Assembly (NCBI RefSeq): GCF_012939955.1
Contig: NZ_SPMY01000005.1
Location: 1 to 64,000 of the forward strand
Origin: Candidatus Accumulibacter phosphatis
Lineage (GTDB): Bacteria; Pseudomonadota; Gammaproteobacteria; Burkholderiales; Rhodocyclaceae
Length of the DNA: 64,000 bases
Reading direction: 5' to 3'
Each line of letters starts with the position of its first letter. The first letter of the stretch is position 1. A program made the position numbers and the translations under genes. Shown piece by piece: positions 45,411 to 47,657 of this stretch. The notes beneath the pieces are model-generated. The model saw nothing but the letters and a program-made list of their open reading frames with translations, was not told the DNA's origin and made no database searches.

Positions 45411-47657
45411 ATGGTCAGCAATCTCTCAAGCACCATTGGCGTACTGACTAGCGGCGGTGATGCCCAAGGCATGAACGCCGCAGTGCGCGCGGTGGTTCGC
45501 TCGGCGCTGAACCGGGGCGTCGGCGTGCACGCCATTCTGGAGGGCTATCAGGGGATGGTGGATGGCGGTGAGCGCATTCGCTCCCTGTCCTGGGATGATG
45601 TCGGAAGCATTTTGAACCGCGGTGGAACGATCATCGGGACGGCCCGCTGCCCAGCGTTTCGCGAGCGGGAAGGTCGCCTGATTGCCGCCCGAAACCTGCT
45701 CCAGCACGGGATCGACCGGCTGGTGGTGATCGGCGGCGATGGCAGCTTGACCGGTGCCAACCTGTTTCGCCAGGAGTGGCCTAGCCTCCTGGCGGAGCTG
45801 GTCGAGCGCGGCGATATTGACGCGCTGACCGCGCAAAGGCACCCGGCGCTGATGATTACCGGTTTGGTGGGTTCGATCGACAACGACATGGTCGGCACGG
45901 ACATGACCATTGGTGCCGATACTGCGCTGCACCGGATCGTCGAGGCCATCGACGCCATTACCAGCACCGCCGCCAGCCACCAGCGCACCTTCGTGGTCGA
46001 GGTGATGGGCCGCCACTGCGGCTATCTGGCGCTGATGAGCGCCATCGCCGGCGGTGCGGACTACGTCCTGATCCCGGAAAGCGCACCGCCAGAAGACTGG
46101 CAGCAGGAGATGTGCGAGCGTCTGCGCAGCGGTCGGGCGGCTGGTCGGCGCGATAGCATCGTCGTCGTCGCTGAGGGGGCCTGCGACAAGGAGGGCAAGG
46201 GGATCAGCAGCGACCAGGTGCGGCAGGTGCTGCAAGACCGGCTTGGGGAGGACACGCGCGTGACCATCCTCGGCCACGTGCAGCGCGGCGGCAAGCCGAG
46301 CGCCTTCGACCGTTGCATGAGCACGCTGGTCGGCCATGCCGCCGTCCAGGAGCTGTTGGCGGCCACCGTGGACAGCGAACCGCAGATGGTCGGCATGCGC
46401 TATAACCGGGTACGACACGCACCGTTGATGGAATGCGTCGAGCAAACTCACGCCGTGGCGCGCAGGATCGCTGAGCATGATTATGCGAAAGCGATGGAGT
46501 TGCGTGGCAGCAGTTTCAGCGAGATGTTTCAGACCTTCAAGGCCATGGCCGGCGCGCCGCCGAGTGTCATACCGCCGGCGCGCCCGCGCCGGCTCGCCGT
46601 GTTGCACGGCGGCGGGCTTGCGCCAGGCATGAATACCGCGGCTCGCGCCGCTGTTCGGCTGGGACTGGATCGTGGCCACACCATGCTCGGAGTACGTGGC
46701 AGTTTCGAGGGTCTGCTTGCCGGCCGGATCGAGGAGTTGAGCTGGGGCGACGTCGAAGGGTGGGCGGCGATGGGCGGCGCCGAACTGGGGACGACGCGGC
46801 AGGCGCCGACCGTCGAACAGCTCTACGCAGTCGCACGGGCGCTGGAAACGCACCAGATAGACGGTTTGCTGATCATCGGTGGCTGGCTGGCCTACAGGGT
46901 CGCCCACAATCTGTACAGCGAGCGGGAACGCTATCCGGCCTTCAAGATTCCGATCATTTGCCTGCCGGCGAGTATCGACAATAACCTGCCCGGCTCCGAG
47001 TTGAGCATAGGCGCCGACACCGCGCTCAATGTCATCGTTGAGGCCCTCGACCGGATCAAGCAGTCGGCGATGGCCGCTCGGCGTTGCTTCGTGGTCGAAG
47101 TCATGGGCCGCTATTGCGGCTATCTGGCGCTGATGAGCGGTCTTGGAAGCGGCGCTGAGCGCATCTATCTGCCCGAGGAAGGGGTTTCCCTCAAGGACCT
47201 GCAAGCCGATGTGGAACGGATGATCGAGGGCTTTCAGGGCGGTCGGCGTTTCTATCTCACGATTCGCAACGAGCGCGCAAACGCGCAGTACACCACCGAT
47301 TTTATGTGCCGGCTGTTCGAGGAAGAAGGCCACGGCCTTTTCGACGTGCGTCAGGCGATCCTGGGTCACGTTCAGCAGGGCGGCAATCCCTCGCCGTTTG
47401 ACCGTGTGCTGGCGACTCGCCTGGCTGCACACGGTATCGATTTCCTGACCCGAGAACTGGATCGGGGTTCTGCGACCGGGGCCTATATTGGCCTGGTCGA
47501 AGGCAGAGTGACGATCTCCCCGATCAAGCGCATGCACGACGAGGTCGATCTGCAGCATCGGCGGCCGACGGAGCAATGGTGGCTCGATTTGCGGCCGGTC
47601 ATGGAGGCCGTGGCGCGCCCGAGGAAGGAAGCTTTGGATGCCGCTCGCCGCCTTTAA
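45411..47657 (+). CDS. Tandem-fused, eukaryotic-type 6-phosphofructokinase
   Basis: A 748-residue protein with two PFK domains in one chain, the architecture of animal and fungal PFK; usual bacterial PFK is about 320 residues. The N-terminal half is catalytic: [13 protein letters not shown] (108-112, the glycine type seen in ATP-dependent enzymes), GSIDND (154-159), [12 protein letters not shown] and [14 protein letters not shown]. Its wording ([38 protein letters not shown]) follows eukaryotic PFK closely. The C-terminal half begins near 394 and has lost key residues: GGWLA (490-494) replaces GGDGS and SIDNN (521-525) replaces SIDND, so it is probably regulatory. It catalyses the committed step of glycolysis. 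Its stop overlaps that of pyrF. Confidence 0.93.

Follow-up and report, generated by a model that had tools for sequence, protein, structure and literature searches.

A tandem phosphofructokinase in Candidatus Accumulibacter phosphatis and the probable bacterial origin of a eukaryotic-type glycolytic enzyme

The tandem gene and its product

The stretch of DNA analyzed here (the window) comprises the first 64,000 nucleotides of contig NZ_SPMY01000005.1 of Candidatus Accumulibacter phosphatis (assembly GCF_012939955.1; 5.04 Mb in 149 contigs, 97% complete), and at positions 45411-47657 of its forward strand it carries a gene for a 6-phosphofructokinase (PFK) with two PFK domains in one chain. 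The open reading frame is complete, running from ATG to stop without an internal stop codon and encoding 748 residues, and the purine-rich sequence GAAGGAAGG lies 8 bases 5' of the ATG. The features of the gene on which our analysis draws are as follows.

45411-47657, forward strand: tandem, predicted ATP-type 6-phosphofructokinase, 748 residues, ATG start, stop codon included (TIGR02478; PF00365 in two stretches)
45394-45402, forward strand: probable ribosome-binding sequence GAAGGAAGG, by reading of the sequence
45411-46574, forward strand: N-terminal half, residues 1-388, putative catalytic half by its conserved catalytic positions; the cut at 388 was our choice
45732-45746, forward strand: N-half GGDGS, residues 108-112, ATP-type nucleotide motif (sequence motif)
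45762-45854, forward strand: N-half insertion region, residues 118-148, 31 residues, by length against eukaryotic N halves and single-domain PFKs
45873-45887, forward strand: N-half SIDND, residues 155-159, with the catalytic Asp (sequence motif)
46575-47654, forward strand: C-terminal half, residues 389-748, putative regulatory half by its residue losses and an omega of 0.05-0.10
46878-46892, forward strand: C-half GGWLA, residues 490-494, nucleotide motif lost (motif against alignment)
46971-46985, forward strand: C-half SIDNN, residues 521-525, Asp523 (catalytic-base position) present (motif against alignment)
47082-47378, forward strand: C-half pocket, R558, M565, G566, E621, R647, and H653, with Q656 replacing the catalytic Arg (alignment)

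The protein scores as a full member of the tandem family TIGR02478, whose NCBIfam model is labeled "eukaryotic" (6PF1K_euk), reaching 1013.2 bits against a cut-off of 708.4, with residues 8-736 aligned to model positions 2-741. The Pfam domain PF00365 matched in two stretches (4e-199), and the two PFK domain matches lie at 45435-46349 and 46590-47444 on the forward strand, within one chain. This family has already been named by NCBI; the window protein adds a new bacterial member to it, and the interest lies in the rooting of the family and in the pocket of its second half. The original prediction, made by a model from the sequence alone, had described two PFK domains in a 748-residue chain with an N half very like that of animal PFK, and both descriptions were borne out. 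Aligned to human PFKP over 727 residues, the protein is 51% identical (58% in the N half, 45% in the C half), and its own halves are 40.5% identical to each other. When the PDB was searched with phmmer, the mammalian platelet, muscle, and liver enzymes came first, at 798 bits (human PFKP) to 756 bits, followed by yeast PFKs at 641 to 613 bits; single-domain bacterial PFKs reached at most 259 bits.

An AlphaFold2 model of the protein (mean predicted local distance difference test, pLDDT, 89.9; predicted template modeling score, pTM, 0.91) was compared with known structures. The 36 best PDB chains in Foldseek were all mammalian or yeast tandem PFKs, with template modeling (TM) scores of 0.91-0.95 on the query, and every single-domain PFK ranked below them; against whole human and yeast subunits, VIA gave Z of 44.8-51.0. 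In the model, each half adopts the fold of single-domain PfkA (Z about 30), and the tandem fold spans the full chain. The linker between the halves, LR(G or D)..F, is common to the window protein and animal and yeast PFK-1, although the protein has no counterpart to the long N-terminal extension of the K. pastoris chains, whose match starts at residue 175-210. Residues 740-748 are weakly modeled. Human PFKL has a tail of roughly 20 residues that stabilizes the T state (PMC12203962), and since only about 10 residues of the window protein follow its aligned end, such a tail would be short or missing here.

Residue states in the two halves

We compared residue states in 117 unique bacterial tandem proteins, which fall into a main clade of 107 and a deep clade of 10 (see below), together with 6 eukaryotic and 17 single-domain sequences. 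The bacterial proteins remained after 2 same-genome repeats had been removed from a set of 119 (109 main and 10 deep) that excluded L162 and L163, two pieces of one gene on two contigs; an earlier residue alignment held 109 tandems over 650 residues, with 6 repeat loci and the short L049 excluded. Six of the 10 deep proteins were placed by a tree, and the other four were assigned by their identity (67-81%) to L112, a Chloroflexota protein that is only 47% identical to that of the window. Position names such as Asp12, Asp127, and Arg252 follow E. coli numbering and were assigned by motif.

The residue checks agree with the predicted retention of the catalytic motifs in the N half. Its catalytic positions are kept in 107 of 107 main-clade proteins and in 8-10 of the 10 deep-clade proteins, one alignment gap aside; the exceptions are Glu in place of Asp103 in two deep rows and a single row gapped at Gly11 and Asp12. 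The N half also bears an ATP-type signature, consisting of GGDGS and of a Gly preceding SIDND, the latter in 104 of 107 main rows. We take this combination to denote ATP as the phosphate donor and the motifs GGDD and PKTIDGD to denote pyrophosphate (PPi). Neither PPi-type motif occurs in the N half of the window protein, which reads GGDGS and VGSIDND, and the residue signature thus fits ATP as the donor.

In the C half, the replacements of GGDGS by GGWLA and of SIDND by SIDNN were correctly predicted, at residues 490-494 and 521-525. The Trp of GGWLA is found in 98 of 107 main bacterial rows, with Phe at this position in all six eukaryotes, and the Gly that should follow it has been lost from all 117 bacterial and all 6 eukaryotic C halves. 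The last position of SIDNN is likewise Asn in 93 of the 107 main-clade proteins and in all six eukaryotes. Across the 117 bacterial C halves, Gly104 and Asp103 were each lost 117 times, Arg252 and Asp12 107 times each, and Asp129 103 times, while Asp127 was kept in 59 (in the eukaryotes, 0 of 6). Out of eight nucleotide-binding and catalytic residues, no bacterial C half keeps more than four, and most keep one to three; the window protein keeps three (Gly11, Asp127, and Arg171), and each eukaryotic C half keeps none. At the level of residues, these counts speak against activity in both halves, and they leave the bacterial C halves less eroded than the eukaryotic ones.

The sugar-phosphate pocket, in contrast to the nucleotide pocket, appears intact. 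Its sugar-phosphate residues are almost invariant: four of them are jointly present in all but two of the 117 bacterial C halves and in four of the six eukaryotic ones, and the mean entropy of the sugar-phosphate set over the 119 bacterial tandems, weighted by similarity, is 0.09 bits against a C-half median of 1.14, a value reached by 0.015% of random position sets. By the same measure, the C-half nucleotide set (1.14 bits; 34% of random sets as low) and catalytic set (1.23 bits; 46%) were no better conserved than random positions. The pocket residues of the window protein correspond to R566, M573, G574, E629, R655, and H661 of human PFKM; among the PFKM residues linked to citrate, K557 is kept, D591 is replaced by Glu, and K617 by Gln (variable). 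The C half is under purifying selection similar to that on the N half, with omega values of 0.05-0.10 and 0.06-0.12, respectively (10 pairs).

In eukaryotic PFK-1, the C-terminal ATP pocket was lost and the fructose 6-phosphate (F6P) pocket became the effector site for fructose 2,6-bisphosphate (F2,6BP); in a human PFKP structure, this site is filled with fructose 1,6-bisphosphate (FBP) (PMC12203962). The window C half resembles it in having an eroded nucleotide pocket and a retained sugar pocket. A difference lies in PFK-2, which was not detected in the window's host: a search for the 6PF2K domain, with controls that included no eukaryote, found none in this genome, nor in any of 42 further genome handles that carry a tandem PFK. 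F2,6BP is not known to occur in bacteria. Because none of these 43 tandem genomes yielded a 6PF2K-family gene, the native bacterial effector is probably F6P or FBP, and one of these, rather than F2,6BP, is most likely the ligand of the C half.

One duplication shared with eukaryotes

The original prediction had left a choice between an independent bacterial duplication and shared ancestry with the eukaryotic enzyme, and had proposed a phylogeny of each half. In a first tree of halves, built from 25 bacterial and 6 eukaryotic tandems cut in two and from 20 single-domain PFKs, all N halves formed one clade (support 100/97) and all C halves another (100/100). A second tree that included the deep clade (24 bacterial tandems, 6 eukaryotic rows, and 17 single-domain rows) gave 100/100 for both, each apart from the 17 single-domain PFKs. 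N halves therefore grouped with N halves and C halves with C halves across domains of life, and neither half of the protein falls inside ordinary single-domain PfkA. The single-domain rows were 20 of 35 sequences, retained as being under 85% alike, and the divergent L117, L092, and L114 were dropped after the first tree.

Insertion lengths tell the halves apart in the same way. Measured in 33 of the 119 bacterial tandems (27 main and 6 deep) and the 6 eukaryotic ones, the region after GGDGS in the N half is 31 residues long in all 27 main bacterial proteins and all 6 eukaryotes and 30-31 in the 6 deep proteins, and the corresponding region of the C half has 15 residues in 39 of 39. Ordinary PfkA (TIGR02482; E. 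coli, B. stearothermophilus), a single domain of about 320 residues, lacks both insertions, with 8-9 residues here in 17 of 17 sequences. Trees and insertions together indicate that the bacterial, human, and yeast tandem PFKs stem from one duplication. Shared ancestry was thus upheld, and we exclude the independent duplication because of the 100/100 half clades and the half-specific insertion lengths. What the window protein has in common with animal and yeast PFK-1 (PFKP, PFKM, and PFKL; S. cerevisiae PFK1 and PFK2) accordingly extends to two fused domains, a putatively catalytic N half, an eroded C half with a sugar pocket, the half-specific insertions, and the predicted whole-chain fold. 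Of the animal enzymes, native human PFKM has been produced in the E. coli strain RL257, which has no pfk genes of its own; extracts showed its activity, yet growth on glucose was not regained (PMC2990764).

Rooting of the tandem family

The deep clade consists of 10 sequences (L112 and L153-L161); an eleventh candidate, L152, belongs to the main clade. Tandem genes pass the family cut-off in 11 of 20 genomes of the Chloroflexota order to which L112 belongs, and Chloroflexota hold the widest diversity of tandem PFKs in our sample. In the second tree, the two halves separately placed the deep clade outermost, with the eukaryotes beside the main bacterial clade. A tree of concatenated N and C halves, with doubled single-domain PFKs as the outgroup, likewise separated the main bacteria and eukaryotes from the deep clade, with support of 100/99. 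In approximately unbiased (AU) tests, a grouping of all bacterial tandems as one clade was rejected (p 9.9e-5; this hypothesis was named after the tree had been seen), as was a grouping of the deep clade with the eukaryotes (p 1.2e-4). Bacterial monophyly was also rejected when animals were the only eukaryotes (p 0.02) and when N halves were rooted on C halves, with no single-domain rows (p 0.017). We chose the subsets for these trees ourselves: 33 tandems for the concatenated tree, its AU tests, and the animals-only tree, and 21 for N halves rooted on C halves. Each tree held 6 eukaryotic rows, except for 2 in the animals-only tree, and 17 single-domain rows, except for 20 in the first half tree and none in the tree of N halves rooted on C halves.

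Residue states of the C half agree with the deep clade lying outside, independent of any tree. All 17 single-domain PFKs have Asp12 (in GGD) and Arg252 (in QRGG), and the C halves of the deep clade keep Asp12 in 10 of 10 and Arg252 in 9 of 10 cases. In the main clade, Asp12 is kept in 0 of 107 C halves (Pro or Leu in 104), and Arg252 has become Gln in 100 of 107; the eukaryotic C halves have Pro and Gln at these positions, each in 6 of 6. The deep clade has itself replaced C-half Asp103 by Met, Leu, or Thr and lost Asp127 and Arg171. Since it lost the latter two while keeping Asp12 and Arg252, no living C half is ancestral throughout. Taken as a whole, the C half of the deep clade is no less eroded.

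The position of the deep clade outside human, yeasts, and the other bacteria, taken with its two ancestral residues, suggests that the tandem enzyme most likely arose in bacteria and was inherited by opisthokonts. The phrase "eukaryotic-style," under which the original prediction had introduced the gene, probably has the polarity reversed when read as a direction, in that the sampled eukaryotes branch within bacterial diversity. As an oddity of one betaproteobacterium it did not stand either, because other phyla carry tandem genes, whereas the tandem type itself was confirmed.

Distribution and probable transfer among bacteria

A peptide-pattern scan of GTDB contigs gave 151 related loci, of which the best 80 were taken. 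Among these 80 were loci of Accumulibacter, Propionivibrio, Competibacter, and Contendobacter, then of Chloroflexota and Actinomycetota (Micropruina, Propionicimonas, and Arsenicicoccus), and records titled Trueperaceae, Fermentibacteria, Microcoleus, and Phycisphaerales, one of each. L028, the record titled Phycisphaerales bacterium GAO1, has a tandem PFK that nests inside Competibacteraceae, and for this reason its title or bin is probably wrong.

In genome samples, each of which includes a centring genome already known to carry a tandem gene, full tandem genes were found in 19 of 201 genomes of Chloroflexota, in 10 of 149 of Actinomycetota, and in 1 of 299 of Pseudomonadota. The first two samples take their phylum labels from the titles of records L040 and L080, and the Actinomycetota and Pseudomonadota counts are of full-length matches in protein searches; matches at E <= 1e-60 occurred in 12 and 16 genomes, respectively, those not of full length being single-domain. 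The original prediction had remarked that many betaproteobacteria lack PFK altogether. Within the window's own family, 3 of 249 genomes (2 of 9 in the genus) passed the tandem cut-off, and 235 of 249, the source genome included, had some PFK-model match at E <= 0.001.

Accumulibacter tandem genes occupy two places in the tree (starred branches), one beside Propionivibrio and one beside Contendobacter odensis. This separation points to repeated transfer, although a group can also be split by binning or by paralogues. In phosphorus-removal sludge, a study from 2015 reported, by classification discordance, that Betaproteobacteria had received a 6-phosphofructokinase from Chloroflexi in two of the three communities (PMC4502571). 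That gene may be the same as ours and comes from the same kind of community, although the available part of the study mentions neither a tandem nor a eukaryotic type.

Genomic setting

The window PFK shares 97% identity with its counterpart in Ca. A. adiacens, and hppA, an adjacent open reading frame, pyrF, and kinase-like neighbors also match Accumulibacter loci; three other Accumulibacter assemblies (L004-L006) have similar genes in the same order. The same contig carries hppA, pyrF, tRNAs, and thiC with a thiamine pyrophosphate (TPP) riboswitch. The riboswitch occupies 49663-49761 on the forward strand, with thiC following at 49874; the tRNA genes, two in number, lie at 49228 and 49329.

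In the window and in the Accumulibacter loci L004-L007, hppA, a gene for a proton or sodium pyrophosphatase, lies upstream of the tandem gene, which suggested PPi as a possible donor. We rejected this idea as unsupported by the N-half motifs, and it was weakened further in that hppA adjoined the tandem gene only in Accumulibacter loci; it was not found in the flanks of other tandem loci, which extended to at most 5 kb and were often shorter. The genome does have another PFK-superfamily gene (L003, contig C70), with the PPi-type motifs GGDDS and PKTIDGD in a 519-residue frame that is open at its 5' end.

The adjacent open reading frame (44523-45326, forward strand) encodes 267 residues and has a paralogue at 40213-40996 on the same strand. 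No Pfam or NCBIfam model matched this family at E <= 0.001 when a longer frame (44349-45326) was scanned. The family occurs in 14 of 14 proteobacterial tandem-PFK genomes tested and in 0 of 12 tandem-PFK genomes of other phyla. In the window's family it occurs in 4 of 121 genomes, three of them tandem-PFK genomes, two of which are among the 14. In a genome of the same genus with no tandem PFK over the cut-off (G125), a single-domain PFK (L092, 426-residue frame) adjoins a copy. A role as a PFK partner was considered, as the gene adjoins a PFK in three settings (the window, L092, and L194), but was dropped because the neighbors vary elsewhere: of 17 further regions, four had hppA next to the gene, seven a thioredoxin-like gene, two (L190 and L194) a gyrB-like gene, and four nothing recognized, the thioredoxin-like and gyrB-like names being our own reading of the sequences. 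The family may be a marker of polyphosphate- and glycogen-accumulating lineages.

Discussion

Taken as a whole, our best explanation, to which we assign a probability of about 0.66, is that of a tandem PFK of bacterial origin that has been transferred between lineages and serves in glycolysis, with catalysis in the N half and a sugar-phosphate sensor in the C half. The N half would make FBP from F6P and ATP, and the C half would be an allosteric pocket for a phosphorylated fructose. The gene would have arisen in bacteria and reached eukaryotes in a single transfer, to the ancestor of animals and fungi, with F2,6BP adopted later by eukaryotes at a site that already existed. The Accumulibacter copy would be a product of horizontal transfer, drawn from a pool that the host has in common with Chloroflexota, Actinomycetota, and Competibacteraceae. 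A more detailed history, in which the duplication took place in bacteria, probably in Chloroflexota, the dead C half sensed a fructose phosphate before F2,6BP signaling existed, and the animal-fungal ancestor acquired a finished switch that was later linked to PFK-2, seems to us about evenly balanced between true and false.

Several observations weigh against this explanation. The activity of the N half and the ligand binding of the C half are read from sequence. The window C half retains Asp127 and Arg171, and the C halves of four further rows retain both aspartates of SIDND. Asp103 is Asp in only 9 of 17 single-domain PFKs, where the other seven positions are invariant, so its loss alone is weak evidence. 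In two of the six eukaryotic rows, the set of four sugar-phosphate residues is incomplete. The 6PF2K search had no eukaryotic positive control, and a non-homologous enzyme making F2,6BP would have been missed. With respect to the rooting, the deep clade lacks the C-half Asp127 and Arg171 that 59 and 84 of the 107 main rows, respectively, have kept. Our eukaryotes are PDB sequences of human and two yeasts, and other eukaryotic tandems could shift the root. The first half tree had placed the eukaryotic C halves next to a single Chloroflexota row (98/81), a placement that we rejected when it vanished upon sampling of the deep clade; the tree is therefore sensitive to sampling. The main bacterial clade is weakly supported when single-domain rows are absent (59/67 for N halves and 62/43 for C halves), and its support is 94/75 with animals only. 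Any attraction between long branches under the model affects the AU tests as well, and the second half tree gives no firm sister relationship of the N and C clades within the single-domain PFKs.

Alternatively, duplication and fusion may have taken place in an early eukaryote, from which the tandem gene passed to bacteria at least twice, once to the deep clade and once to the main clade. The patchy occurrence of the gene in Chloroflexota and Actinomycetota, the likely transfers between bacteria, and the narrow sampling of eukaryotes all suit such an origin. It would, however, need two transfers, and the deep clade would have had to retain two C-half residues of the single-domain type that are absent from human and yeasts; it also conflicts with the rejection of both bacterial monophyly and a grouping of the deep clade with eukaryotes; moreover, eukaryotic C halves keep none of the eight nucleotide and catalytic residues, where most bacterial rows keep one to three. 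We consider it unlikely. The pocket itself leaves room for a bacterial C half that binds F2,6BP made by an unrecognized enzyme, since its residues are the same as R566, E629, R655, and H661 of PFKM, but given the missing 6PF2K matches in 43 genome handles, even with the control lacking, this seems to us distinctly improbable.

Two other accounts fare worse. A separate bacterial duplication that converged on a catalytic and a regulatory half would have to reproduce both the grouping of like halves across domains and the same insertion lengths, and the C half is more similar to the human C half (45%) than to its own N half (40.5%); having found no point in its favor, we regard it as very hard to sustain. 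High identity to human PFK could also arise if eukaryotic DNA had been binned into a bacterial assembly. The frame, however, runs uninterrupted between bacterial genes, the gene order recurs in three other Accumulibacter assemblies, tandem genes are present in strain-titled assemblies such as that of Arsenicicoccus bolidensis DSM 15745, and the nearest relatives in the tree are bacterial rather than eukaryotic. We rule out contamination on these grounds, and its probability is close to nil.

Bacterial members of the family have been noted before. Cagg_2702 of Chloroflexus aggregans, a protein of 747 residues labeled "6PF1K_euk" with homologues in many Chloroflexota, was described in 2021, together with a second, single-length PFK of that organism; its transcript was low, with an average of 9.28 transcripts per million (TPM) (PMC8004040). 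It shares the named family and the tandem length with the window protein, and the available part of that paper does not treat its ancestry, halves, residues, or ligand. Bacterial tandem enzymes are likewise unmentioned in the available parts of PMC12203962 and PMC12889660. In the open-access literature, we found no paper stating that the eukaryotic tandem PFK branches inside bacteria or that its sugar pocket predates F2,6BP.

For Accumulibacter, a role in the handling of glycogen is proposed, in a cell that degrades it without air and rebuilds it with air. The tandem enzyme would probably be a one-way, regulated valve of glycogen glycolysis, standing beside a PPi-type PFK that could run reversibly. 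Wastewater biology would thereby gain a regulated one-way glycolytic enzyme, apparently transferred among polyphosphate- and glycogen-accumulating bacteria. If the tandem PFK existed in bacteria first, a central allosteric switch would be bacterial in origin, and the role of the F2,6BP site before F2,6BP would become testable with bacterial enzymes, for which 117 unique sequences, those of the deep clade included, are now at hand.

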